Assembly: GCA_945920215.1 (NCBI GenBank) | Contig: CAMEJM010000013.1 | Span: 1-42,470, forward strand | DNA: 42,470 nt | Reading direction: 5' to 3' | From: an uncultured bacterium | GTDB taxonomy: Bacteria > Bacillota > Clostridia > Oscillospirales > CAG-272 | Part shown: piece after piece, positions 20,760 to 34,762 of the stretch | Layout: every line of letters begins with the position of its first letter | How positions within the stretch are numbered: the stretch's first letter is position 1 | Translations under genes and position numbers: made by a program | Notes under the pieces: generated by a model | Told to the model about the DNA's origin: nothing | Database searches by the model: none | Seen by the model: the letters and a program-made list of their open reading frames with translations, nothing else

Positions 20760-22343
20760 TTATACACCGCTTGCCCCGTAGTTGGAAAGGACACGCGCCG
20801 AGGGGTCGTTGACGTTGCAGCCCTCCCAGTTTTTGTTGGGCATCCAGAAGTCGGCAATCATTTCCGCTTGACCTGGATAATACTTTTCAAACAATTCACG
20901 GTAGCAAAGGGATTCTTTTGTGAAAGGGGTCGCATAGCTATATTTGATGCGTTTTTCCTCAAACTCCTCATCGGTATAAAGTGATTCCGCGTATTCTTTG
21001 AGATAGTCCACCATCGAGTGACCGACCGCGTCGCTGAAGGCGGCTTTTTCCCGCATCAGAATATCATGCGGCAGGTAATCTCCCTCAAATGCATGGCGCA
21101 ACAGGTATTTGCCTTTGCCATAGACGTTCATTTTCATTTCAGGGGCAATTGACATCACATATTTCACGAAACTGAGGTCACCAAACGGGACACGCGCTTC
21201 CAGTGAGTTGGAGGAGATACAGCGGTCAGCGCGCAATACGTCATACATATGAAGTTCCCGAATACGTTTTTCGGATTCAAGTTGAAATTCATCGGCTGAG
21301 GGAGCAAAATCTGTATATTTGTATCCGAAGAGTTCGTCGGAAATCTCACCGGTCATAAGCACGCGGACGTCTGTCGTCTCGTGGATGGCGCGGCAAAGCA
21401 GATACATACCGATGCTGGCGCGGATGGTCGTAATATCATAGGTACCGAGAATGGAGACCACTTCCGGCAACGCTTTCAGGACGTCTTCTTTGGTGATGAT
21501 GATTTCATGATGCTCAGAGCCGATATAGTCGGCGACCTCTTTTGCATACTTCAGATCGATTGCGTCGGTATTCATACCGATGGCAAAAGTGCGGATCGGA
21601 TGTGAAACAAGCTTGGCGCTGACAGCGCACACCAAAGAGGAATCAAGACCACCGGAAAGGAGAAATCCGACAGGCGCGTCCGCGTCCATGCGTTTTTCAA
21701 TGCCCGCAATCAAAAGTGTGCGTATCGTATCGCAGACCTTGTCGAGCGGCTCTCTCACTACTTGCTCCACTTTTGTCATATCGCGATAGCAGACGAACTC
21801 TCCGCCAAAGTAGTAATGACCGGGTGGGAAAGGAACAATCCGGCTGCAAAGCCCGATAAGGTTTTTCGGCTCCGAAGCGAATATGATTTTTCCGTCGGAG
21901 TCATAGCCGTAATACAGCGGACGGATACCGATCGGATCTCTTGCCGCCACCAGACTGTTGGTCTTGCTGTCATAAATAATCAGCGCGAACTCTGCGTCCA
22001 GCATGCGAAACATCTCTGTGCCGTATTCACGCCACATCGGCAAGAGTACTTCGCAGTCGGAGTTGCTGCGAAAGACGTATCCTTTCTTTTGAAGCGCTTC
22101 GCGCAACGGGCGAAAGCCGTATATCTCACCGTTGCATACGAGAGCATCGTCTCCAAGCGTAAACGGCTGCATACCGCGCTCGGTCAGCTCCATAATGGCA
22201 AGGCGATGAAAGGCAAGCGCACCGTGTTTACCTACTTCAAGAATCTCCGACATATCGGGTCCACGCGATACAGTTTTGTCAAAGCCTTGTATGAATGCTT
22301 CGCGTTGAATTTGAGTGCCGATATAACCCATGATTGCGCACAT
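20760..22343 (-). CDS. asnB: Glutamine-dependent asparagine synthetase AsnB
   Basis: The 527-residue enzyme converts aspartate, glutamine and ATP to asparagine and glutamate. The N-terminal nucleophile Cys2 (MCAIMGYIG) and NGEIYG define the glutaminase domain. The synthetase domain has the ATP-pyrophosphatase motif SGGLDSS at 230-236, followed by IRTFAIGM. It resembles the roughly 550-residue AsnB group typical of E. coli and Clostridia. The gene lies downstream of glnN and amt on the same strand, with a T-box leader directly upstream. It should therefore draw glutamine from this operon and respond to uncharged tRNA-Asn. An AAGAGGT sequence precedes the start. Confidence 0.95.
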   Translation of the reverse strand: MCAIMGYIGTQIQREAFIQGFDKTVSRGPDMSEILEVGKHGALAFHRLAIMELTERGMQPFTLGDDALVCNGEIYGFRPLREALQKKGYVFRSNSDCEVLLPMWREYGTEMFRMLDAEFALIIYDSKTNSLVAARDPIGIRPLYYGYDSDGKIIFASEPKNLIGLCSRIVPFPPGHYYFGGEFVCYRDMTKVEQVVREPLDKVCDTIRTLLIAGIEKRMDADAPVGFLLSGGLDSSLVCAVSAKLVSHPIRTFAIGMNTDAIDLKYAKEVADYIGSEHHEIIITKEDVLKALPEVVSILGTYDITTIRASIGMYLLCRAIHETTDVRVLMTGEISDELFGYKYTDFAPSADEFQLESEKRIRELHMYDVLRADRCISSNSLEARVPFGDLSFVKYVMSIAPEMKMNVYGKGKYLLRHAFEGDYLPHDILMREKAAFSDAVGHSMVDYLKEYAESLYTDEEFEEKRIKYSYATPFTKESLCYRELFEKYYPGQAEMIADFWMPNKNWEGCNVNDPSARVLSNYGASGV

Positions 22344-22609: not shown

Positions 22610-24409
22610 TCAGTTTTCTTCTGCATCCTGCAGGGCGTCATAGCCCTCTTCACCCGTGCGGACCTTAATCACGTTCTCCACATCGTAGATGAAGATCTTA
22701 CCGTCTCCGATATGACCGGTATAAAGCGTTTTCTTAACCACACGTACGACTTCGGACACGGGCACTTTGCTCACAACAACCTCAACCTTAATCTTCGGCA
22801 GGAGGGAAGCTTCGTGCACAACGCCACGGTAATACTCGGGCTTACCTTTCTGTACGCCGCAACCAAGCACGTTGCTGACGGTCATGCCGGTAATGCCGAT
22901 GCCTGCAAGCGCATCTTTCAGAACGCCAAGGCTTTCTGTTCTCGCAAAGATTTCAATTTTGGTAATCTTCACATCGGATGCAACTGCGGAGTCTGCAGAT
23001 GCGGTCTTCAACTGTACGGGTACTGCCTCGTCAATCGGAACAGCAGGTACGGCGGCGGGTATTGCAATCGGGGATGTCCCAACACCGAGCTCGTCAGATG
23101 CAAGCATCATAAAGCCTGCGTAAGCGGTGGGCAAGCCGTGCTCAGAGGAGTCAAGACCTGCAATTTCATCCTCGGGATCCGCACGCAGACCGTTGTGCTT
23201 CACGCCGTTGACAGTCTTGCTACCGAGCTTCTTAATCAGAAGGAAGGTGACAGTCATGGTGACGATGGTATAAGCAGCAACGGTGACAACGCCGAGGAGC
23301 TGCACACCCAACTGCTTGAAACTACCGGTATAGAGCAGACCGTTCAAACCTGCAGGGGCATCGGGGTTTGCCAAAAGGCCGACTGCGATGGTACCCCAGA
23401 TACCGTTTGCCATATGTACTGCCACTGCACCGACAGGGTCGTCAATGTGGAGTTTCAAATCAAGGAATTCTACGACAAATACAACCAGGAAACCGGAGAC
23501 AATACCGACAATGGTTGCACCGAGCGCGTCCAGAGCGGCACAGCCGGCAGTGATACCGACAAGACCGGCAAGGGAAGCGTTCAGACACATGGAAACATCG
23601 GGTTTCCCGTTTTTAATCCATGTGAAAATCATGGTTGTGACGGTTGCAACCGCCGGTGCGATGGTTGTGGTCATGAAGATGGAAGCAAGCTCGGAACCGC
23701 TTTTTGCAGCGGCGCCGTTGAAGCCGTACCAGCCGAACCACAGAATAAAGCAACCGAGGGCGCCGAGAGGAATCGAGTGACCGGGGATCGCATTGACTTT
23801 TACAACCTTGTTATTCTTGTCTTTAACATATTTGCCAATACGGGGCCCGAGAATAATGGCGCCGACCAAAGCGGCAATACCGCCGACCATGTGAATCGCA
23901 GTAGAACCTGCGTAGTCGTGGAAGCCGAGGGAAGAGAGCCAACCACCGCCCCAGATCCAATGGGCTTCAATCGGGTAAATAACCAAAGAGATGACTGCAG
24001 AATAAATGCAGTATGCCAGGAATCTTGTCCGTTCTGCCATCGCACCGGAGACGATCGTCGCGGTAGTTGCGCAGAACACAAGGTTAAAGACGAAAGAAGA
24101 AGCATTTTCAGAAATAAATGCACCGAAGTCTGAGAACATCTGCCAGTTCGGCTTTCCGATCAGACCGAACAAGGCGTTTTCACCGCACAGAAGACCGAAA
24201 CCGAGTATCGTGAAAACCACGGTACCGATACAGAAGTCCATGAGGTTTTTCATGATGATGTTGCCGGCGTTCTTTGCGCGGGTAAAGCCGGTTTCCACCA
24301 TAGCGAATCCCGCTTGCATAAAGAAGACCAATGCGGCACCGATCAGAAACCAAATTCCAAACACGTCGCCGAGGATAGATTCTCTTAACCCTTCCATTAA
24401 TTCTTCCAT
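22610..24409 (-). CDS. amt: Ammonium transporter fused to a C-terminal P-II domain
   Basis: A 599-residue fusion. Residues 1 to about 415 form an Amt/MEP channel with 11 predicted membrane helices (for example GFAMVETGFTRAKNAGNIIMKN, HWIWGGGWL, GSTAIHMVGG and WFGWYGFNG). A linker of about 65 residues rich in Ala, Val and Pro (about 415-479) leads to a complete P-II signal protein from residue 480 onward (GCGVQKGKPEYYRG, then GDGKIFIYDVENVIKVRTGE). Normally P-II is a separate GlnK that plugs Amt when nitrogen is plentiful. The residue matching the uridylylated Tyr51 of E. coli is His532, so control by uridylylation is unlikely; direct binding of ATP, ADP and 2-oxoglutarate remains possible. 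It starts behind GAGGTG, 37 bases after glnN. Confidence 0.93.
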   Translation of the reverse strand: MEELMEGLRESILGDVFGIWFLIGAALVFFMQAGFAMVETGFTRAKNAGNIIMKNLMDFCIGTVVFTILGFGLLCGENALFGLIGKPNWQMFSDFGAFISENASSFVFNLVFCATTATIVSGAMAERTRFLAYCIYSAVISLVIYPIEAHWIWGGGWLSSLGFHDYAGSTAIHMVGGIAALVGAIILGPRIGKYVKDKNNKVVKVNAIPGHSIPLGALGCFILWFGWYGFNGAAAKSGSELASIFMTTTIAPAVATVTTMIFTWIKNGKPDVSMCLNASLAGLVGITAGCAALDALGATIVGIVSGFLVVFVVEFLDLKLHIDDPVGAVAVHMANGIWGTIAVGLLANPDAPAGLNGLLYTGSFKQLGVQLLGVVTVAAYTIVTMTVTFLLIKKLGSKTVNGVKHNGLRADPEDEIAGLDSSEHGLPTAYAGFMMLASDELGVGTSPIAIPAAVPAVPIDEAVPVQLKTASADSAVASDVKITKIEIFARTESLGVLKDALAGIGITGMTVSNVLGCGVQKGKPEYYRGVVHEASLLPKIKVEVVVSKVPVSEVVRVVKKTLYTGHIGDGKIFIYDVENVIKVRTGEEGYDALQDAEEN

Positions 24410-24446: not shown

Positions 24447-26534
24447 TTATCTGACGCTGAACAGAAGATCCGCATAAGAGGGATAAGGCCAGTAATCCGC
24501 AGCAGTGAGTGTTTCCAACTCATCCACTGAGATACGCAGTGCATTCATCGCGTTGAAGACGCTCTCGCGGTAATACTTTGCGCATTTTTCCGTATCTGTG
24601 ATTTCTCTTGCGGCAGGCAAAGTATCTTCGAGGGCTTTCAGCTCCTTGTACGCAAGCGCCGCCTGTTTGGAAATCTGTTTCACCAGATCGACCTCGTAGG
24701 TGTCGTCCGCACCGAACTGTTTCTTTGCGGCAGCCGTGTCAGCCAGTTCATGCTGATATTTGCTGACGGCGGGGAGAATGTCATGGCGCGCCATGTCGAT
24801 CATGGTCTTTGCCTCAATGCTGATGACCTTGCAGTAGTTCTCGGCGGCAATTTCAAAGCGTGATTTGATTTCGGATTCCGTGTACACCTTGTGTTCCGTA
24901 AACAGGGAGACATTCTTTTCATGCAACATATACGGCAGGCATTCGGGCGTGGTCTTGAGGTTTGCAAGTCCGCGCTTTTCCGCTTCGGCAATCCACGCGT
25001 CGTCATAGCCGTTGCCGTTGAAGATGATGCGCTTGTGTTCGGCAATCGTCTTTTTGATAAGTGCGTGAAGCGCAGCAGGGAAATCGGTGACCCCTTCCAA
25101 CTCGTCTGCAAACTGGCGAAGCTCTTCCGCTACCGCAGTATTCAGGACAACGTTTGCATCCGAAATGGAAGCGGACGAGCCGAGCATACGGAATTCAAAC
25201 TTGTTGCCGGTAAAGGCAAAAGGAGAAGTGCGGTTACGGTCTGTCGTGTCCTTGGGGAACTTGGGCAGAACATGCACGCCGACTTTCAGAATTTCTTTTT
25301 CTTTAGCGCCGTAGGGCGTGTCGGTTTCAATTGCATGGAGAATATCAGCTAATTCGCTGCCGATAAACATCGATACAACTGCGGGAGGCGCTTCGTTCGC
25401 ACCGAGACGGTGGTCGTTGCCGGCGGAGGCAACCGAAATACGAAGAAGCTCCTGGTAGTCGTCTACCGCTTTAATAACGGCACAGAGGAAGAGCAGGAAC
25501 TGCGCGTTCTCATAGGGCGTATCGCCGGGTTCCAACAGGTTGATGCCGGTATCGGTGGAAATCGACCAGTTGTTATGCTTGCCGGAGCCGTTGACTCCCG
25601 CAAACGGTTTCTCATGCAGCAGGCAAACCATGTTGTGGCGCTTCGCAATCTTCTGCATCAGCTCCATGGTCAGCTGGTTATGGTCGGTTGCGATATTTGT
25701 GGTGGCAAAAATCGGAGCCAGCTCATGCTGCGCGGGAGCCACCTCGTTGTGTTCTGTCTTTGCAAGAACGCCCAACTTCCACAGTTCTTCGTTCAGTTCT
25801 TTCATGAACGCCTGTACACGGGGCTTGATAACGCCGAAGTAATGATCCTCAAGCTCCTGTCCTTTGGGTGGCTTTGCACCGAACAGGGTTCTGCCGGTGT
25901 AAATCAGATCCTTCCGCTTTGCGTACATATCTGCGTCTACCAGGAAATACTCCTGTTCGGGACCAACCGTTGTTTTCACGGAGGTAACATTATCATGCCC
26001 GAACAGTTTCAGTACGCGCAGCGCCTGACGGTTGATTGCTTCCATAGAGCGAAGCAAGGGGGTCTTCTTATCCAGCGCTTCACCGCCGTAAGAGCAGAAT
26101 GCAGTGGGGATGCAGAGCACGCCGTCCTTGATAAATGCGAAAGACGTCGGATCCCACGCGGTATATCCGCGCGCTTCAAAGGTGGCGCGAAGACCGCCGG
26201 AGGGGAAAGAGGAAGCGTCCGGTTCGCCCTGAATGAGTTCCTTGCCCGAAAACTCCATTATCACTTTGCCGTCGGACGACGTATGAATAAAGCTGTCGTG
26301 CTTTTCCGCCGTGATGCCCGTCATTGGCTGAAACCAGTGCGTATAATGAGTTGCGCCCTTTTCGATCGCCCAGTCCTTCATGGCGTTTGCAACAACATTG
26401 GCAACTGCGATGTCCAGCCGTTTCCCGTAATTCAGGCTTTCCTGAACCTTTTTATAGGTCTCACGGGGCAGGCGTGCCTTCATGACCGATTCGTCAAAAA
26501 CGTTTTCTGCGAAAAAATCGGATACTGTCTGCAT
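24447..26534 (-). CDS. glnN: Type III glutamine synthetase GlnN
   Basis: The 695-residue enzyme makes glutamine from glutamate, ammonia and ATP. It is of the large GSIII class, as its length and motifs show: [52 protein letters not shown] and [16 protein letters not shown]. All catalytic blocks appear intact. The start at 26534 is chosen for its GTGAGGTG ribosome-binding site; an upstream in-frame ATG lies in the leader terminator. It is the first gene of a glnN-amt-asnB operon whose 5' leader carries a strong attenuator. Together with gltBD across the control region it completes a GS-GOGAT cycle. Confidence 0.95.
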
Positions 26535-26553
26535 AATACACCTCACAAAATAA

Positions 26554-26605
26554 AACAGCGACAAGGGTGGAGAGAAATGGTCTCTACGACACCTTTGCCG
26601 CTGTT
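26554..26605 (-). terminator. Leader terminator (attenuator) of the glnN operon
   Basis: On the minus strand AACAGCGGCAAAGGTG (26605-26590) pairs with CACCCTTGTCGCTGTT (26569-26554): 16 positions with one G-U pair and one mismatch. GAGA/TCTC pairing lies inside and TTTATTTT follows. It lies after the promoter and before glnN, so transcription must read through it to express glnN. Its 5' arm contains the hexaloop hairpin described at 26586-26601. Confidence 0.85.
26586..26601 (-). promoter_or_regulatory. Candidate ANTAR-binding hairpin (P2) in the glnN leader
   Basis: On the minus strand GCGGC pairs with GTCGT (five pairs, two of them G-U) around hexaloop AAAGGT, closed by C-G. The loop has A at position 1 and G at position 4, the known requirement for ANTAR protein binding. 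The hairpin uses the 5' arm of the leader terminator, so the two structures exclude each other. Confidence 0.55.
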
Positions 26606-26637
26606 ATGAATAACGGTACAATGGATTCACTTGAACT

Positions 26638-26663
26638 AAGCCGCAACATCCTCGCTGCTACTT
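26638..26663 (-). promoter_or_regulatory. Candidate upstream hairpin (P1) in the glnN leader
   Basis: AAGTAGCAGC pairs with GTTGCGGCTT (ten positions with two G-U pairs and one A-G mismatch) around hexaloop GAGGAT, closed by C-G, starting about three bases into the predicted transcript. Loop position 4 is G as in ANTAR sites, but position 1 is G rather than A. Confidence 0.4.
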
Positions 26664-26672
26664 ATGGTCTGC

Positions 26673-26701
26673 ATTTTACAACAACAATTCTCGCTTGTCA
26701 A
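26673..26701 (-). promoter_or_regulatory. Promoter of the glnN-amt-asnB operon
   Basis: On the minus strand TTGACA (26701-26696) and TAAAAT (26678-26673) are spaced by 17 bases. The -35 box faces that of the divergent glnA promoter across 38 AT-rich bases, which could act as a shared UP element. The predicted leader is about 130 bases long. Confidence 0.85.
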
Positions 26702-26739
26702 TAGGATTTTCGAAATTTTTCATTTTTTTTAGAAATTTG

Positions 26740-26768
26740 TTGACACACCGTTTCATCTGTGCTAAACT
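26740..26768 (+). promoter_or_regulatory. Promoter of the glnA-nitR-gltBD operon
   Basis: TTGACA at 26740-26745 and TAAACT at 26763-26768 are spaced by 17 bases, with a start expected near 26775. Confidence 0.8.
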
Positions 26769-26777
26769 CTATGCATA

Positions 26778-26797
26778 TATGAGCAATGGCGTTCATA
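26778..26797 (+). promoter_or_regulatory. Candidate ANTAR-binding hairpin in the glnA leader
   Basis: TATGAGC pairs with GTTCATA (seven pairs, one G-U) around hexaloop AATGGC, closed by C-G. Position 1 is A and position 4 is G, as ANTAR proteins need. The hairpin sits at the very 5' end of the transcript. Its 3' arm (26791-26797) is part of the 5' arm of the terminator at 26789-26848, so forming one prevents the other. Confidence 0.6.
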
Positions 26798-26848
26798 GAT
26801 AAATAGATATGTTTCTATATCTATATCTGTGAGCGCGCTTTCTTTTTT
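26789..26848 (+). terminator. Leader terminator (attenuator) of the glnA operon
   Basis: GCGTTCATAGATA (26789-26801) pairs with TATCTGTGAGCGC (26824-26836) in 13 pairs with two G-U. An inner seven-pair TAGATAT/ATATCTA hairpin caps it, and GCTTTCTTTTTT follows. It lies between the promoter and the glnA ribosome-binding site (26852-26858), so it must be bypassed for expression. Confidence 0.75.
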
Positions 26849-26863
26849 ATCGGGAGGGAAATG

Positions 26864-28066
26864 ATGTATAGTTACGAGGACGTTCTGACATATGTCAATG
26901 AGGAGAACGTAAAGTTTATCCGTCTGGCATTCTGCGATATTCACGGTAAACAGAAGAATGTGGCAATCATGCCCGATGAGCTGGAACGTGCTTTCAGAGA
27001 CGGAATCTCATTTGACGCGTCTGCGGTGGACGGTTTTGAAAGCGAAATACACTCTGACCTGTTTCTTCACCCGGACCCCACAACGCTTTCCGTTCTCCCT
27101 TGGCGCCCCTCAAACGGAAGAGTCATCCGTATGCTGTGCGACGTCCGTTATCCGGACGGCACACCGTATGTAAAGGACGGAAGACAAATACTGCGCACAG
27201 CGGTGGAAGCAGCGGAAGCGGAGGGAATTACCTGCAATTTCGGCGCAGAGTACGAGTTTTACCTTTTCAAAAGAGATGAAAAAGGCGACCCGACGCGTGA
27301 GCCTTACGACAATGCCGGCTATATGGCGATCGCCCCGGACGATAAGGGGGAGAACATACGCCGTGAAATTTGTCTGACGCTTCAGGATATGGGGATCCGC
27401 CCCGAGACGTCGCACCATGAGGTGGGACCGGGGCAGAATGAAATTGATTTCCATTACAGCGCCCCGATGACGGCGGCAAACGATGCGGTCACCTTCCGCG
27501 CCGTCGTTGAAACGGTAGCGGCGCGCAACGGTCTGTACGCGGACTTTTCTCCGAAGCCGCTGACAGGATACAGCGGGAACGGAATGCACATCAATGTTTC
27601 CGTAAAGGAACGAACAGGGAAAGATGTCACAGAGCAGTTTATTGCAGGTCTGCTCGCACATATCTGCGAAATTTCTTATTTTTTGAATCCCACAGAAGAT
27701 TCTTATCTGCGTCTCGGAGAAATGAAAGCCCCCCGCTATGTGACTTGGTCGCGTGAGAACCGTTCCCAGTTGGTTCGGATTCCCGCCGCAAAAGGCGAAT
27801 ACAAGCGGATTGAGCTGCGTTCCCCGGATCCGTGCGCGAATCCGTATCTTGCGTACGCGCTGATCCTTCACGCAGGTCTCGACGGGATCAAGCGTCATCT
27901 GCCGCTAAGACCCTCGACAGACTTGAATCTGTACACCGCGCCGCGTGAAGTGACAGAGCGGCTGGAAAAACTCCCTGCAACGCTTGAGGAAGCATATACG
28001 GCGGCGCATGAAAGCGCGTTTGTCAAGAAAATCCTGCCGGAAGGGTATCTGGAGAGTCTGAGCTGA
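26864..28066 (+). CDS. glnA: Type I glutamine synthetase-like protein GlnA, atypical
   Basis: A 400-residue GSI-family protein, shorter than the usual 440 or so. Metal-binding and substrate motifs are present: GAEYEFYLF, HHEVGPGQNEIDF, GNGMHINVS, NRSQLVRIP and RIELRSPDPCANPYLAYA. Three differences stand out. The active-site flap, normally ending Glu-Ala-Pro, reads GEMKAP with Lys (codon 27725-27727). The segment matching B. subtilis Arg62, used in feedback inhibition, reads GFESEIHSD without Arg. The last 25 or so residues of the family are missing, and no frameshift remnant follows. ATG 26864 is preferred to 26861 for its spacing to GGAGG. It may be a specialised or weakly active synthetase; GlnN is intact. 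Confidence 0.85.
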   Translation: MYSYEDVLTYVNEENVKFIRLAFCDIHGKQKNVAIMPDELERAFRDGISFDASAVDGFESEIHSDLFLHPDPTTLSVLPWRPSNGRVIRMLCDVRYPDGTPYVKDGRQILRTAVEAAEAEGITCNFGAEYEFYLFKRDEKGDPTREPYDNAGYMAIAPDDKGENIRREICLTLQDMGIRPETSHHEVGPGQNEIDFHYSAPMTAANDAVTFRAVVETVAARNGLYADFSPKPLTGYSGNGMHINVSVKERTGKDVTEQFIAGLLAHICEISYFLNPTEDSYLRLGEMKAPRYVTWSRENRSQLVRIPAAKGEYKRIELRSPDPCANPYLAYALILHAGLDGIKRHLPLRPSTDLNLYTAPREVTERLEKLPATLEEAYTAAHESAFVKKILPEGYLESLS

Positions 28067-28106: not shown

Positions 28107-28691
28107 ATGGCTGAGGACGATAAACTGCGGATTCTCACTGTATCGGCAGGTTCAAAGTTGTTTGACTATTTATCAGAGATTCTGCCGCGCAGCGAGTTTT
28201 CCTGCGATTATCAAGCACAATCCGCCGGAGAAGCAATGCGGCTGTTTTTAGACGTATCCTTTGACATTGTGGTCATCAACACCCCTTTGCCGGACGAATT
28301 TGGCAAAGAGCTTGCGCTTGATCTTGCGGACAAATACCCGATAGGGGTACTGATGCTCGTCAAGGAGGACTTTTTCGACACGATTGCATCCGACAACGAG
28401 GAACACGGAATCCTGACGTTAGCGCGCCCGTGCAGCAAAAATATGCTGTACCAGACCGTTAAACTGTTGGCGGCAACCCGCCGGCGCCTTCTCAGAATGG
28501 AGAAGAAGACGGTTTCACTCGAAACACAGATGAAGGAAATCCGGCTTGTCAATCACGCAAAGTGGCTTCTGATACAGAATCTGAAAATGAATGAGCCGGA
28601 AGCCCACCGATATATAGAAAAAACGGCAATGGACAAATGCATCCGCCGCGTGCAGGTGGCGGAACAAATTATCAAAATCTACGGAGAATGA
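28107..28691 (+). CDS. nitR: ANTAR-domain RNA-binding antiterminator with degenerate receiver (NitR-like)
   Basis: The 194-residue protein has a receiver-like N-terminal half (about 6-125), a coiled-coil linker (about 126-148) and a C-terminal ANTAR domain (about 146-192; NHAKWLLIQNLKMNEPEAHRYIE, then AMDKCIRRVQVAEQII). ANTAR domains bind paired hexaloop hairpins in nascent RNA and prevent terminator formation. The receiver is degenerate: the phosphoacceptor position is Asn58 (VVINTPLP), the acidic pair after strand one is absent (ILTVSAG), and the usual Lys-Pro reads ARP. Control is therefore probably not by ordinary phosphorylation. It lies between glnA and gltB, as nitR does in Clostridium saccharobutylicum. 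Its likely targets are the leaders at 26554-26848. AAAGGAGG precedes the start. Confidence 0.9.
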   Translation: MAEDDKLRILTVSAGSKLFDYLSEILPRSEFSCDYQAQSAGEAMRLFLDVSFDIVVINTPLPDEFGKELALDLADKYPIGVLMLVKEDFFDTIASDNEEHGILTLARPCSKNMLYQTVKLLAATRRRLLRMEKKTVSLETQMKEIRLVNHAKWLLIQNLKMNEPEAHRYIEKTAMDKCIRRVQVAEQIIKIYGE

Positions 28692-28737: not shown

Positions 28738-31700
28738 ATGGAACAGCGTACACCAAAGTTATATGACCCGGCATTTGAGCATGACGCCTGCGGAATAGGC
28801 GCCGTCGTGGATATCCACGGCAAAAAAAGCCACGCGGTGGTGGAGCAGGCACTCTCCATTGTGGAAAAACTGGAACACCGCGCCGGAAAGGACGCCAGCG
28901 GTAAAACCGGTGACGGTGTGGGAATACTTCTTCAAATTTCCCACAAATACTTCAGCAGAGTGTTGAAAGAAGCGGGAATCAATGTCGGCGCAGAGCGCAC
29001 CTATGCCGTCGGGATGTTCTTCTTCCCGCAACAGACCCTTGCGCGCAATCAGGCCAAAAAAATGTTTGAGGTCATTGCCGAAAAAGAGGGCGTGAAGTTC
29101 CTCGGCTGGAGAAAGGTCCCCACCTGTCCCGATATTCTTGGGGAAAGAGCGCGGTCGTGTATGCCCTATATGATGCAGGGCATTCTTGAAAAGCCGCGCG
29201 ATATTGCCGCCGGTATCGATTTTGACAGAAAGCTCTATGTTATCCGTCGGGTCTTTGAGCAGTCAAACGACAATACCTATGTGCCTTCGCTCTCCTCGCG
29301 CACCATCGTATATAAAGGAATGTTCCTCGTCGGACAACTCCGGCGCTTCTATTGCGATTTGCAGGATCCTGATTATGAGAGTGCGCTGGCGCTTGTTCAC
29401 TCGCGCTTCTCAACCAATACAACGCCGAGCTGGGAACGCGCCCACCCGAACCGCATCATTCTCCACAACGGGGAAATCAATACGATTCGCGGCAACGTAG
29501 ACCGTATGTTTGCCCGTGAAGAAACCATGTCCAGCCCTGTCATGCGCGATGAGATCGACAAGGTGATGCCTGTGGTAGACACCCGCGGTTCCGACTCCGC
29601 GATGCTGGATAACACGCTGGAGTTCCTGATGATGAACGGCATGGATCTGCCTCTTGCCGTCATGACCACGATTCCGAAGCCTTGGAGAGCCGATAAGAGC
29701 GTTGATGAAACCACAAGAGATTTCTATCACTATTATTCGACGATGATGGAGCCTTGGGACGGTCCTGCGGCGATCCTGTTCTCCGACGGCGATATTGTCG
29801 GAGCAGTACTTGACAGAAACGGTTTGCGCCCCTCGCGCTACTATGTGACGGACAACGATATGCTGATTCTTTCGTCGGAGGTAGGCGTTCTGGAGCTTCC
29901 GCAGGAGCATATTGTCGCGAAAAAGCGCTTGGAGCCCGGCAAAATGCTTTTGGTCGACACCGTTGCGGGAAAAATCGTATCCGACCGTGATTTGGTACAA
30001 CACTATGCTTCCCGCACGCCTTATGGGGAATGGCTCGATCAGAATCTGATCCGGCTCAAGGATCTCCCGATACCGAATAAGCGCGTGGAAAACTATACGC
30101 AAGAGCAGCGAGACCGCCTGTATAAAGCGTTCGGCTATACATACGAGAATATCAAAAATGCGATTCTGCCCATGGCAAAGAACGGAACCGAAGCAACCGC
30201 TTCCATGGGAACCGATGTGCCGCTTGCGGTTCTGTCGGAAAAGCATCAACCGCTGTTCAATTATTTTAAGCAGTATTTCGCACAGGTCACCAATCCGCCG
30301 ATTGACGCGATCAGAGAGGAAATTGTAACCGATACCCATGTCTATATCGGCTCTGACGGTAATCTGCTTGAAGAAAAAGCCGAAAACTGCAATGTTTTGG
30401 AAATCAGGAATCCTATTTTGACATCTGTGGACCTGATGAAAATCAAAGCGATGAACCGTCCCGGCTTCCATGTGGAAACGGTTTCTCTGCTGTATTACAC
30501 CAATACGCCGCTTGACCGCGCGCTCGACAGGCTTTTTGTCAACTGTGACCGCGCTTATCGCAGCGGTGCTAATATCCTGATTCTTTCCGACCGTGGCGTC
30601 GATGAAAACCACGTGGCGATTCCATCCCTCCTTGCCGTATCTGCCATTGAGCATTATTTGGTGCGTACCAAGAAGAGAACCGCGGTTTCCATCATCCTGG
30701 AAAGCGGAGAACCCTGCGACGTGCATCATTTTGCAACGCTGCTCGGCTACGGCGCGCGCGCCATTAATCCCTATCTTGCGCAGGAATGTATCACAGAGAT
30801 GATCGACCTTAAAATGCTGGACAAGGATTATCACACGGCTATCCGCGACTACAACAACGCCATTTTGCACGGGATTGTCAAGATCGCGGCAAAAATGGGC
30901 ATTTCGACGATCCAGTCCTATCAGTCGTCGCAGATTTTTGAAGCAATCGGCATCAATCGTGACGTCATCGACCGCTACTTTACTGGCACTGTCAGCCGCG
31001 TCGGCGGGATCGGGCTTGATGAAATCAACGAAGAGGTAGAATACCGCCATAACCACGCTTTTGACCCGCTTGGGCTCGGCGTAGACACAACGCTTGACAG
31101 CGTTGGGGAACATCAGCTGCGCAGCGGCTGCGATAAAGAGGACCATATGTACAACCCGCAAACCGTGATTGCTTTGCGGGAGGCAACGCAGAAAGGTTCC
31201 TATGCGCGTTTCAAAGAATATTCCGCGATGGTGGACGATGAAACCCGCCCGCATACCCTGCGCGGCTTGCTTGACATCGATTTTGAAAACGTGCAACCGA
31301 TTCCGCTTGAAGAGGTAGAGAGCGTCTCGGAAATCGTAAAGCGCTTCAAAACCGGCGCTATGTCCTACGGCTCTATCTCGCAGGAGGCGCACGAGTGCAT
31401 GGCGATCGCCATGAATCGCCTCGGCGGGAAATCCAATTCCGGCGAGGGTGGAGAAAAGCCCGAACGCCTCGGTACAGAACTCAACAGCGCAATCAAACAG
31501 GTGGCGTCCGGCAGATTCGGCGTCACGAGCGAATATCTGGTCAGCGCAAAGGAAATCCAGATCAAGATGGCGCAGGGAGCCAAGCCGGGTGAAGGCGGAC
31601 ATCTTCCGGGAAAGAAAGTATATCCATGGATCGCAAAAACGCGGTATTCCACGCCCGGTGTGTCCTTGATTTCACCGCCGCCACACCACGACATTTACTC

Positions 31701-33267
31701 TATTGAAGATTTGGCGCAGTTGATTTACGATTTGAAGAACGCCAACCGCGATGCCCGTATCTCTGTCAAGCTTGTTTCGGAAGCAGGGGTAGGTACCATT
31801 GCCGCGGGCGTGGCGAAAGCGGGCGCGCAGGTCGTTTTGATTTCCGGCTACGACGGTGGCACCGGAGCGGCACCTTCCAGCTCCATTCACAACGCCGGTC
31901 TGCCTTGGGAGCTCGGTCTTGCCGAAGCGCATCAGACCTTGATTCGTAACGGACTCCGTACCCGCGTGATCCTTGAGACGGACGGGAAGCTGATGACAGG
32001 CCGCGATGTGGCTATCGCCGCAATGCTCGGCGCCGAGGAATTCGGGTTTGCTACCGCGCCGCTGATTACCATGGGCTGCGTGATGATGCGGGTCTGCAAC
32101 CTCGACACCTGCCCGTGCGGCGTGGCGACGCAGAACCCGGAACTGCGGAAACGCTTCTGCGGGAAACCGGAATATGTGGAAAACTTCATGCGTTTCGTGG
32201 CAGAAGAATTGCGCGAGATTATGGCAAAGCTCGGAATCCGCCGCATGGAGGATCTTGTCGGGCGTACAGATCTTTTGCATTGTCGCGAGCAGGCGCCCAC
32301 TCCGCGCGCCGCAACCGTTGACCTGAGCGGAATCCTTGACAGTATGCCGGATGTGCCGCAAACGCAAAAGCACTTCAATCCCGCGGACGTATTTGATTTT
32401 GAGCTGGAAAAGACAATGGATATGAGTCTGTTTCTGCCGAAATTTCATGCCGCCGTTGCAAGCGGAAAGAAGCAGAAGCTGCGCGTGAACATCTCAAGCA
32501 CCAACCGTACGCTCGGCACGATTCTCGGTTCCGAAATCACAAAGCAGCACAGAAACGGATTGCCCGACGATACCATTACCGTCAACTGCTTCGGCGGCGG
32601 CGGACAGTCCTTCGGCGCCTTTATTCCGCGCGGACTAACCATGACGATTGAAGGCGACTGCAACGACTATTTCGGCAAAGGGCTTTCGGGCGGGAAATTG
32701 TCGGTATATCCGCCAAAGAACGCCTCTTTCCGTGCCGAAGAAAACGTGATCATCGGCAACGTGGCGCTGTACGGAGCTACCTCCGGAGAAGCGTATATCC
32801 GAGGCATCGCGGGAGAGCGCTTCTGCGTCCGTAACTCCGGCGCCAATGCGGTTGTCGAAGGTGTCGGCGACCACGGCTGCGAATATATGACCGGCGGACG
32901 GGTTGTAATTCTCGGAAAAACCGGCAAAAATTTCGCGGCAGGAATGAGCGGCGGCATTGCGTATGTGCTGGACGAGCATCATGATCTCTATCAGCATCTG
33001 AACAAGGAATTAGTAACCATGACGGAAGTGACCGAAAAGCACGATATCGAGGAGCTAATGGGGCTTATCCGCAACCATGTTGCTGCGACAGATTCCGCAG
33101 TAGGGCGCGCGATATTGGCAAACCCCGAAAAGTATATCTGCAATTTCAAGAAGATTATGCCGAACGATTATCGGAGAATGTTGGTCACGATCGGGCAGTT
33201 TGAAGAAAAAGGATTAACGCGTGAACAGGCGGAATTGGAAGCCTTCTACGCGCTTCAAAGGGGGTAA
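28738..33267 (+). CDS. gltB: Glutamate synthase large subunit
   Basis: The 1509-residue subunit moves the amide group of glutamine onto 2-oxoglutarate, giving two glutamates. Cys18 (DACGIG) should be the N-terminal nucleophile after removal of a 17-residue propeptide. The order is class-II amidotransferase (1 to about 430), central domain, FMN-binding synthase domain (GGTGAAPSSSIHNAGLPWELGLAEAHQTL), the [3Fe-4S] motif CNLDTCPCGVA, and a C-terminal beta-helix with repeated glycine-rich turns. Length is normal. AAGAAGG precedes the start, 46 bases after the ANTAR gene. That gap contains a CGGGA/TCCCG hairpin without a U-run, so the four-gene operon probably continues through it. Confidence 0.97.
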   Translation: MEQRTPKLYDPAFEHDACGIGAVVDIHGKKSHAVVEQALSIVEKLEHRAGKDASGKTGDGVGILLQISHKYFSRVLKEAGINVGAERTYAVGMFFFPQQTLARNQAKKMFEVIAEKEGVKFLGWRKVPTCPDILGERARSCMPYMMQGILEKPRDIAAGIDFDRKLYVIRRVFEQSNDNTYVPSLSSRTIVYKGMFLVGQLRRFYCDLQDPDYESALALVHSRFSTNTTPSWERAHPNRIILHNGEINTIRGNVDRMFAREETMSSPVMRDEIDKVMPVVDTRGSDSAMLDNTLEFLMMNGMDLPLAVMTTIPKPWRADKSVDETTRDFYHYYSTMMEPWDGPAAILFSDGDIVGAVLDRNGLRPSRYYVTDNDMLILSSEVGVLELPQEHIVAKKRLEPGKMLLVDTVAGKIVSDRDLVQHYASRTPYGEWLDQNLIRLKDLPIPNKRVENYTQEQRDRLYKAFGYTYENIKNAILPMAKNGTEATASMGTDVPLAVLSEKHQPLFNYFKQYFAQVTNPPIDAIREEIVTDTHVYIGSDGNLLEEKAENCNVLEIRNPILTSVDLMKIKAMNRPGFHVETVSLLYYTNTPLDRALDRLFVNCDRAYRSGANILILSDRGVDENHVAIPSLLAVSAIEHYLVRTKKRTAVSIILESGEPCDVHHFATLLGYGARAINPYLAQECITEMIDLKMLDKDYHTAIRDYNNAILHGIVKIAAKMGISTIQSYQSSQIFEAIGINRDVIDRYFTGTVSRVGGIGLDEINEEVEYRHNHAFDPLGLGVDTTLDSVGEHQLRSGCDKEDHMYNPQTVIALREATQKGSYARFKEYSAMVDDETRPHTLRGLLDIDFENVQPIPLEEVESVSEIVKRFKTGAMSYGSISQEAHECMAIAMNRLGGKSNSGEGGEKPERLGTELNSAIKQVASGRFGVTSEYLVSAKEIQIKMAQGAKPGEGGHLPGKKVYPWIAKTRYSTPGVSLISPPPHHDIYSIEDLAQLIYDLKNANRDARISVKLVSEAGVGTIAAGVAKAGAQVVLISGYDGGTGAAPSSSIHNAGLPWELGLAEAHQTLIRNGLRTRVILETDGKLMTGRDVAIAAMLGAEEFGFATAPLITMGCVMMRVCNLDTCPCGVATQNPELRKRFCGKPEYVENFMRFVAEELREIMAKLGIRRMEDLVGRTDLLHCREQAPTPRAATVDLSGILDSMPDVPQTQKHFNPADVFDFELEKTMDMSLFLPKFHAAVASGKKQKLRVNISSTNRTLGTILGSEITKQHRNGLPDDTITVNCFGGGGQSFGAFIPRGLTMTIEGDCNDYFGKGLSGGKLSVYPPKNASFRAEENVIIGNVALYGATSGEAYIRGIAGERFCVRNSGANAVVEGVGDHGCEYMTGGRVVILGKTGKNFAAGMSGGIAYVLDEHHDLYQHLNKELVTMTEVTEKHDIEELMGLIRNHVAATDSAVGRAILANPEKYICNFKKIMPNDYRRMLVTIGQFEEKGLTREQAELEAFYALQRG

Positions 33268-33271
33268 TGAT

Positions 33272-34762
33272 ATGGGAAAACCTACAGGTTTTATGGAAAC
33301 AGCGCGGAAAGAGTCTCCTGTCCGCCCGCCCCTCGAACGCATCAAGGATTTTAATGAGTTTCACACTCTGACCTCCGATAAGGAGCGGCAGGCGCAGGGC
33401 GCCCGCTGCATGAACTGCGGCGTTCCGTTCTGCCAGTCTGGCATGATGCTCGCCGGTATGGCGACCGGCTGTCCGCTCCACAACCTGATTCCGGAATGGA
33501 ATGATGAGATATATCACGGCAACTGGTCGCATGCGCTTTCCCGCCTGACAAAGACCAACAATTTCCCGGAATTCACCGGCAGGGTCTGTCCCGCGCTTTG
33601 CGAGGCGGCTTGTACCTGCGGGCTCTATGACAGTCCCGTTACGGTGCATGACAATGAGCTGTCAATCATTGAAAAGGCATTCGAGAGTGGGGAAATGGTA
33701 GCACGTCCGCCGAAAATGCGCAGTGAGAAATCGGTGGCAGTTATCGGCAGCGGTCCGTCCGGCTTGGCGTGCGCGGATCAGCTGAATCACCGCGGACACA
33801 ACGTCACCGTGTTTGAGCGGGATGACCGTATCGGCGGGTTGCTCATGTACGGGATCCCGAATATGAAACTTGAAAAGCGCATCGTGGACCGCCGCGTTGC
33901 ACTGATGAAAGAGGAGGGCGTTATTTTCAAGACCGGTGTTGACGTTGGAAAAGATATTTCACCGGAAGAGTTGCAAAAGCAGTTTGACGCGGTGGTGCTG
34001 TGCTGCGGAGCCGGTAACCCGCGTGACTTGAATCTGCCCGGCAGAGATGCGGCGGGTATCTGGTTTGCCGTGGATTTTCTTCGTCAAACCACCAAAACCC
34101 TCCTCAATACCGGCAGTGCGCCTATGGATGGCGACGCTTCGGCACATGGGAAACACGTGATTGTTGTCGGAGGCGGCGACACGGGCAACGACTGTGTGGG
34201 AACCTGTATCCGTGAAGGATGTGCTTCCGTCACGCAAATTGAGATGATGCCGCGCCTGCCGGACTCGCGTTCCGATTCCAATCCGTGGCCGCAGTGGCCG
34301 CGCGTTTGCAAAACAGATTACGGTCAGGAGGAGGCAATCGCTGTTTTCGGTCACGATCCGCGTATTTTTGAAAGCACGGTCAAAGAGTTTCTCAAAACAC
34401 CCGAGGGCAACCTTTGCGGGGTCAAAATCGTATCTGTGCATTCCGAAAAAGATGAGGCGACCGGCAGAAACCGCATGGTTGAAACGCCGGGAACGGAGCG
34501 GGAACTTCCGGCAGATATGGTTCTGATTGCTGCGGGCTTTCTCGGTCCCCGCCCATATATTGCGGAAGCATTCGGGCTCAATACCACACAGCGTACCACT
34601 GTCGCGACAGAGGACGGTAAGTACCGTACTTCTGTTCCGGGGGTATTCTGCGCGGGAGATATGCACAGAGGGCAATCCCTTGTGGTATGGGCAATCACCG
34701 AAGGGCGCGCCGCCGCCAAAGAGGTGGACTTGTATCTTATGGGGTACAGCAATATGCTGTAA
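33272..34762 (+). CDS. gltD: Glutamate synthase small subunit
   Basis: The 496-residue subunit supplies electrons from NAD(P)H to the large subunit. The N-terminal cysteine-rich region (CMNCGVPFCQSG and GRVCPALCEAACTCGL) binds two [4Fe-4S] clusters. The FAD site is VIGSGPSGLACADQ with RIGGLLMYGIP, the NAD(P)H site is VVGGGDTGNDCVGT, and a second FAD contact is VFCAGDMHRGQSLVVWAITEG. The ATG at 33272 follows AAAGGGGG at the end of gltB, with only four bases between stop and start, so translation is coupled. It is the last gene of the glnA-nitR-gltB-gltD operon. Confidence 0.96.
   Translation: MGKPTGFMETARKESPVRPPLERIKDFNEFHTLTSDKERQAQGARCMNCGVPFCQSGMMLAGMATGCPLHNLIPEWNDEIYHGNWSHALSRLTKTNNFPEFTGRVCPALCEAACTCGLYDSPVTVHDNELSIIEKAFESGEMVARPPKMRSEKSVAVIGSGPSGLACADQLNHRGHNVTVFERDDRIGGLLMYGIPNMKLEKRIVDRRVALMKEEGVIFKTGVDVGKDISPEELQKQFDAVVLCCGAGNPRDLNLPGRDAAGIWFAVDFLRQTTKTLLNTGSAPMDGDASAHGKHVIVVGGGDTGNDCVGTCIREGCASVTQIEMMPRLPDSRSDSNPWPQWPRVCKTDYGQEEAIAVFGHDPRIFESTVKEFLKTPEGNLCGVKIVSVHSEKDEATGRNRMVETPGTERELPADMVLIAAGFLGPRPYIAEAFGLNTTQRTTVATEDGKYRTSVPGVFCAGDMHRGQSLVVWAITEGRAAAKEVDLYLMGYSNML

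Follow-up and report, generated by a model that had tools for sequence, protein, structure and literature searches.

A candidate one-hexaloop, ANTAR-type transcription attenuator in the glnA leader of an uncultured clostridial bacterium

The glnA locus, its leaders and the ANTAR protein

The window, which is the whole stretch of DNA analysed here, is an entire contig of 42,470 bp from a genome of 1.59 Mb that is 98% complete. Its nitrogen genes and the features of their leaders are given below. R1 denotes a covariance model that was built from 86 leader sequences and used with a cut-off of E ≤ 2e-4.

20760..22343, minus strand: asnB, after amtB (Pfam)
22610..24409, minus strand: amtB with a PII domain, downstream of glnN (Pfam)
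24447..26534, minus strand: glnN, type III glutamine synthetase (Pfam)
26547..26605, minus strand: glnN-leader terminator, stem-loop 26605-26554 and T tract to 26547, overlapping the hairpin 26601-26586
26586..26601, minus strand: glnN-leader hexaloop hairpin, GCGGC-AAAGGT-GTCGT (R1 match)
26643..26658, minus strand: possible degenerate first hairpin of the glnN leader, GCAGC-GAGGAT-GTTGC (tentative reading)
26673..26701, minus strand: glnN promoter, -35 TTGACA 26701-26696, -10 TAAAAT 26678-26673
26740..26768, plus strand: glnA promoter, -35 TTGACA 26740-26745, -10 TAAACT 26763-26768, 17-bp spacing
26778..26797, plus strand: hexaloop hairpin, candidate antiterminator (fold, R1 match)
26789..26848, plus strand: intrinsic terminator of the glnA leader, stem-loop 26789-26836, T tract 26839-26848
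26861..28066, plus strand: glnA, type I-like glutamine synthetase (Pfam PF00120, PF03951)
28107..28691, plus strand: ANTAR protein, 194 aa (Pfam PF03861)
28738..33267, plus strand: gltB, glutamate synthase large subunit (Pfam)
33221..34762, plus strand: gltD, glutamate synthase small subunit (Pfam Pyr_redox_2, Fer4_20)

The glnA protein scored 350.8 bits against NCBIfam TIGR00653, under the cut-off of 429. The true start of gltD probably lies downstream of the GTG at 33221, and the first internal Met is residue 18. On the minus strand, the PII domain forms the C-terminus of the ammonium transporter at 22610-24409, i.e., an AmtB-PII fusion. A T-box leader was found 5′ of asnB at 22604-22388 (minus strand; Rfam RF00230, 80.4 bits, E 4.8e-18, gathering score 93), and asnB probably has its own tRNA-sensing control, placed between amtB and asnB.

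The gene next after glnA encodes the ANTAR protein that the initial annotation had placed downstream of the leader. This product, for which the name NitR from the clostridial literature is used here, matched PF03861 at 56.2 bits (cut-off 27.3), which assigns it to the ANTAR-domain proteins, and it is the only PF03861 match found in its genome. It is composed of a REC-like domain, a long helix and an ANTAR domain (residues 138-189). Its AF2 model had a pLDDT of 91.7, with EutV among the best structural matches (50 listed); the absence of AmiR and Rv1626 among those 50 carries no weight. The phospho-Asp position, aligned with the Asp of Rv1626, is Asn58 in the window protein, and across 38 proteins it is Asn in 32, Ser in 3 and Gln, Tyr and Asp in one each; the acceptor Asp of the phosphorylated REC-ANTAR response regulators (EutV type) is missing from the window protein. 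Since the receiver-like domain usually carries Asn at this position, it is probably a partner or ligand, and not a kinase, that sets the activity of the protein by reporting nitrogen or glutamine status. The positions that contact RNA in EutV, with roles as described for the EutV-RNA crystal (PMC8934654), were kept: Met175 in 38/38 proteins, Arg146 in 36/38 and His167 (EutV Tyr164) in 37/38. Position 150 is Arg or Lys in 36 of the 38 proteins and His in the window protein.

Nine nucleotides past the -10 box of glnA, the arms TATGAGC (26778-26784) and GTTCATA (26791-26797) form seven pairs, one of them G.U, around the loop AATGGC (26785-26790). The loop has A1 and G4, the closing pair is C-G and the next pair is G.U. 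The hairpin matched R1 with 27.5 bits (E 3.1e-6 in the window), its sequence being one of the 86 used for training. The outer 13 pairs of the terminator start at hexaloop position 5, and the terminator takes loop positions 5-6 together with the entire 3′ arm of the hairpin. Bases 26789-26797 are common to both folds, which are mutually exclusive. A 7-pair AATGGC hairpin after the promoter, sharing these bases with a 13-pair terminator, had been described in the initial annotation, and the coordinates agreed.

The fold of the whole glnA leader had an energy of -31.8 kcal/mol, compared with an average of -18.2 for shuffles (z -4.28; 0 of 200 as good). The terminator piece alone reached -25.5 kcal/mol (z -6.5; 0 of 200 as good). 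The hairpin alone gave -6.4 kcal/mol, with z -2.8 or -1.7 depending on the flanks, and 6 or 12 of 200 shuffles were as good. On the window sequence alone the terminator stands well clear of chance, and the hairpin exceeds it only modestly; the case for the glnA hairpin therefore rests on relatives. Since the terminator is far stabler than the hairpin, the latter would need help to form, as expected of a protein-dependent antiterminator.

The divergent glnN leader on the minus strand has the same element, which had been overlooked initially. Its hairpin (26601-26586) matched R1 with 24.0 bits (E 3.9e-5) and is also one of the 86 training sequences; its terminator had an energy of -25.8 kcal/mol (z -6.5). 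The hairpin at 26658-26643, nearer the glnN promoter, keeps G4 and the C-G and G.U pairs, and its A1 is changed to G. Neither a T tract directly 3′ nor a terminator was found for it, and we tentatively read it as a decayed first copy of the element.

No Rfam family matched the window at its gathering score, and five relatives gave one tRNA. Five sub-threshold Rfam matches at 26400-26900 (E 0.08-1.9), one of them a SAM riboswitch with 19.9 bits (cut-off 44.4), were taken as chance.

Conservation of the element and its link to the ANTAR protein

Relatives were collected with a profile from an alignment of 11 ANTAR proteins, which found at least 568 in a genome collection; the best 80 were kept with their flanks. 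A scan of the collection with the single ANTAR protein as query found no relatives. In 76 of these 80 a glnA match precedes the ANTAR gene, and two of the remaining four met a contig end within 140 bases upstream. In many relatives glnA is preceded by a split gltB operon, and glnN is divergent. From the relatives and the window, 123 leader regions were cut (52 glnN, 37 glnA and 34 gltB-type).

These leaders contained 218 hairpins with a 6-nt loop and a stem of at least 6 pairs, 89 of them with A1 and G4, compared with 88.9 and 5.9 in mononucleotide shuffles. The same count on the opposite strand, which includes divergent leaders, gave 144 and 37. A good promoter was found in 105 of the 123 leaders, and an A1/G4 hexaloop with a stem of at least 5 pairs lay no more than 45 nt past the -10 box in 68 of the 105, compared with 110 of 5250 shuffled 45-mers. 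The gap between the -10 box and the first hairpin pair was 3-21 nt, with a median of 8. Hairpins with stems of at least 5 pairs near the -10 box were also picked blind to the loop, with a slightly looser promoter rule that gave 114 regions. Loop size 6 occurred 77 times, and sizes 4, 5, 7 and 8 occurred 25, 10, 15 and 15 times. Among the 77 hexaloops, A1 was present in 63, A2 in 69 and G4 in 61; the closing pair was C-G in 61 and the next pair G.U in 60, while position 3 was freer (A 48, T 11, G 11, C 7). Retention of A1 with G4, which the initial annotation had set as a test, was observed in 60/77 of these promoter-proximal hexaloops.

The motif GC-AANGNN-GT, searched without the extreme edges of the leader regions, gave 124 matches in 94 of the 123 leaders, with 2.4 expected. 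The exact motif was absent from 29 leaders, which counts against the element, and some of these have variants. The outer pairs, which the motif does not select, were formed in 117, 114, 98 and 86 of 118 distinct sequences at pairs -3, -4, -5 and -6 (shuffle means 91, 66, 53 and 73), and pairing was at or near chance at pairs -8 to -11. Compensatory pair types were present in the outer stem. Covariation for the seven-pair structure in 86 of the 118 sequences, which are related and do not represent independent events, was 0.524 compared with 0.197 when shuffled (0 of 500), and 0.07-0.17 with slid partners. Pairs changed on both sides (5) were not above shuffles, because the columns vary anyway. 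Three families of arms, TGAGC/GTTCA, AAGGC/GTCTT and ACGGC/GTCGC, keep the pairing. The initial annotation had held that a lack of stem covariation would speak against the switch; in the hexaloop stem covariation was found. The second candidate hairpin that it had named, with loop TATGTT inside the terminator loop, had no conserved counterpart in the leaders of relatives.

A hairpin of -8 kcal/mol or lower followed by a T tract was located after 107 of the 124 elements, and it overlapped the hexaloop hairpin in 104/124, including both window elements. In a control with every third element shuffled, this was seen in 5 of 41. No terminator was found after 17 of the 124 elements, which counts against the reading. 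Taken together, the comparative evidence is strong, and the sequences argue that the element is a real, conserved one-hexaloop attenuator.

The distribution of the element among genomes was compared with that of the protein; since R1 was trained on leaders adjoining the ANTAR protein, presence of the element there is partly built in, and its rarity elsewhere is not. The protein was matched in 14 of 69 genomes of the same genus, a patchy distribution, and some of these genomes are incomplete. Under stricter Infernal filters at E ≤ 2e-4, the element was found in 8 of the 14 genomes with the protein and in 3 of the 55 without it; its absence from 6 of the 14 counts against the link. Two of the three exceptions (G067 and G009) have the divergent glnN/glt layout on contigs that end before the expected glnA and ANTAR gene, and no ANTAR was found elsewhere in either genome. 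The third match (G005) had no promoter by eye and was taken as chance.

In a sample of 107 genomes of the order, with presence of the protein defined by a profile match at E ≤ 1e-30, the element was found in 27 of 59 genomes with the protein and 2 of 48 without it (Fisher p 6e-7). One of these two (G101) has an ANTAR gene, by eye behind a glutamine synthetase frame; the R1 match in the other (G103) was inside a reading frame with no promoter seen. Of the 33 genomes with the strongest protein matches (E ≤ 1e-70), 26 had the element and 7 lacked it, which counts against the link. On these counts, the elements track the glnA-linked ANTAR protein across genomes. The ANTAR protein of G101 (L258) is much diverged, and in that genome the element is at asnB; the protein may represent the same regulator in a rapidly evolving form.

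In the genome of the window, R1 gave 12 matches at E ≤ 1. Besides the two in the window, three of them were read (C10:446, C1:42973 and C9:9615); these had no promoter by eye, the last also being inside a reading frame, and were taken as chance. A three-mismatch pattern search of this genome was too loose, with 86 matches compared with 48 for the reversed pattern.

Number of hexaloops, alternative readings and known systems

Inverted repeats at transcription starts are common operators, and the repeat TGAGC-N6-GTTCA has a conserved position just past the -10 box, as a repressor or activator site on DNA would. The repeat is asymmetric as DNA, however: in 75 of the 86 hairpins near promoters that are closed by C-G, the second pair is G.T, which as a wobble fits RNA, and the arms change together between the three families with pairing kept. 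Furthermore, the second copy in glnN leaders, described below, mostly lies away from any promoter, and an overlapping terminator was found for 20/29 second copies. We reject the operator reading, to which we give almost no chance, because the G.T pair is conserved and breaks the symmetry and because the arms change in concert. It is also very improbable that the hairpin is read by a different factor, be it a protein that binds RNA or a small molecule, and that the ANTAR gene is a mere neighbour. The lack of an Rfam family at gathering score in these leaders is in its favor, but a hairpin of 20 nt would make a small aptamer, and seven genomes with elements at distant loci (pyrG, purC-purA, purA-guaA, asnB) each have an ANTAR gene. 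A1/G4 hexaloops are moreover described as the known ANTAR target (PMC3369931).

The remaining alternative is a classical ANTAR target in which a weaker second hexaloop, upstream or in the terminator loop, pairs with the visible one as P1 and P2. The characterised targets of EutV, NasR and AmiR have two hexaloops (PMC3369931, PMC3369936), and both hairpins are reported to be needed for antitermination by EutV (PMC8934654, PMC3369936), which counts against a one-hexaloop reading. A promoter was recognised in 87 of the 94 motif-bearing leaders, and the loop is within 25 nt of the -10 box in 83/87. With transcription starts placed from the promoter sequence, the RNA should therefore begin at about the first pair (median 8 nt past the -10 box), leaving no room for an upstream P1. 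Upstream second hexaloops near the 124 elements were at chance (3 compared with 2.8 expected). A downstream A1/G4 hexaloop (stem of at least 4 pairs, within 15 nt) accompanied 13/124 elements compared with 2.4 expected, which favors two hexaloops, but these 13 have no common sequence; 4 come from close relatives and 1 from a spurious match in the promoter of a true element. A single copy is present in 45/46 motif-bearing glnA and gltB leaders; the exception, the one of 28 gltB leaders with two matches, has a spurious first match. Two copies were present in 29 of 48 motif-bearing glnN leaders. The first copy was at the promoter in 29/29, and the second had no promoter within 30 nt in 25/29. An overlapping terminator of its own was found for the first copy in 24, the second in 20 and both in 16, so that in 13/29 not both copies have one, a point for the two-hexaloop alternative. 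The copies are 65-154 nt apart, yet a linker 20 nt longer abolishes antitermination by EutV (PMC8934654). We read the two-copy glnN leaders as switches stacked in series, and consider a classical two-hexaloop target unlikely.

The one-hexaloop element shares with the described dual-hexaloop targets (EutV/eut, NasR/nasF, AmiR/amiE; PMC3369931) the A1/G4 hexaloop, the ANTAR protein, the nitrogen genes and a hairpin that overlaps and excludes an intrinsic terminator. It differs in that each terminator has a single hexaloop, placed at about the RNA 5′ end, with no upstream P1 and without the two hairpins on a short linker that mark the classical class. The C-G closing pair, the G.U second pair and A2 are additional conserved features. 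ANTAR targets were defined as two hexaloop hairpins, found upstream of many nitrogen genes including glutamate and glutamine synthases (Ramesh 2012, PMC3369931), and a commentary names glutamine synthetase among ANTAR-controlled genes (PMC3369936); ANTAR control of such genes is therefore not new. At least 13 ANTAR sites in six units are reported for D. acetoxidans. In the regulons of Desulfotomaculum acetoxidans and D. reducens, several attenuators likewise precede glutamate synthase and nitrogen genes, with more than one per transcription unit; these sites were found with a two-hairpin model and are compared here by description only (PMC3369931).

The minimal ANTAR motif was redefined as one hexaloop from a EutV-RNA crystal (Walshe 2022, PMC8934654). 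There, one hexaloop with G4, a feature also found here, is the minimal target of an ANTAR dimer. Single sites were foreseen in settings without the time limit of a transcribing polymerase, whereas the single sites here precede terminators. AmiR of Pseudomonas aeruginosa also combines a pseudo-receiver with ANTAR (PMC3369936), and our alignment places His at the position of EutV Tyr164. AmiR is gated by AmiC (PMC3369936), and no such partner was seen among the genes annotated around the glnA operon. In the open papers searched, no conserved single-hexaloop terminator switch at the RNA 5′ end was found. Such a switch with fixed C-G/G.U top pairs, stacked copies and a regulon of glutamine users was likewise absent from the open papers listed, and none of those papers was recognised as dealing with a clostridial glnA antiterminator.

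Proposed switch and regulon in relatives

We propose that the glnA leader is, with high probability, a one-hexaloop transcription attenuator run by the ANTAR protein at 28107-28691. The stem covariation, the retention of A1/G4, the terminator overlap and the co-occurrence with ANTAR all support the compact one-hexaloop switch suggested by the initial annotation. We infer the ANTAR binding, the direction of control, the stoichiometry, the signal and the extent of the operon. During promoter escape by RNA polymerase, the first ~20 nt may fold into the 7-bp hairpin with loop AA(N)GRC. The ANTAR protein would bind and hold this hairpin, making the shared bases unavailable, and the terminator could then not form, so that glnA, the regulator gene and gltBD would be transcribed. 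With no active protein, the far stabler terminator would be expected to win. The second copy of the module would gate the divergent glnN and amtB(PII).

A broader model is tentative, and we lean somewhat against it as a whole. One hexaloop at the 5′ end and one ANTAR dimer might form a complete switch, alone or in series, which in Clostridia would govern glutamine synthesis (glnA, glnN, glt) as well as glutamine consumption (asnB, pyrG-purF, purA-guaA, purC-purA). The phosphorylation-free regulator might read glutamine status via a protein partner, possibly the adjoining glutamine synthetase. The account of the EutV structure left open why one hexaloop is not enough, given that a dimer holds a single one, and called for bioinformatics on single sites (PMC8934654). 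Many natural single-hexaloop sites precede terminators and are small enough for in vitro transcription, which would make this question directly testable. The results also point to a nitrogen switch that is central in many Clostridia for which metagenomes are the main source of knowledge.

To describe the regulon, 46 R1 matches picked from the genus and order listings were read by eye. A promoter just upstream was seen for 23 of them, one of these promoters being weak, and the genes that follow are glnN, split gltB, gltB, glnA, asnB, pyrG, purC-purA and purA-guaA. Another 4, in glnN or gdhA leaders where no clear promoter was seen, are probably second copies. The other 19 comprise one match behind an ANTAR gene and 18 set aside as chance, being inside a reading frame, promoterless or, in one case (L198), next to a promoter-like sequence directly followed by the start codon of another gene. 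In this last case (L198:997), the loop AAAGGA overlaps an apparent ribosome binding site, and the gene behind it resembles, by eye, that of a glutamyl-tRNA synthetase; the hairpin is probably due to chance and possibly translational.

NCBIfam matched nine of ten regulon proteins, including PurC, PurA (twice), GdhA, PyrG, PurF, GuaA and AsnB, and gave no match for the GATase-like gltB piece. The remaining genes were named by eye or from matches around the ANTAR genes of relatives. The element precedes purC-purA, pyrG or purA-guaA, mostly genes of glutamine use, at L235, L237, L239, L242, L200 and L252 (genes at L200, L239 and L252 named by eye), and purF lies behind pyrG in L237 and L239. A hexaloop hairpin with a T tract was also observed directly behind the ANTAR gene at L055:10595, L078:10650 and L251:690, where it perhaps gates the following gene.
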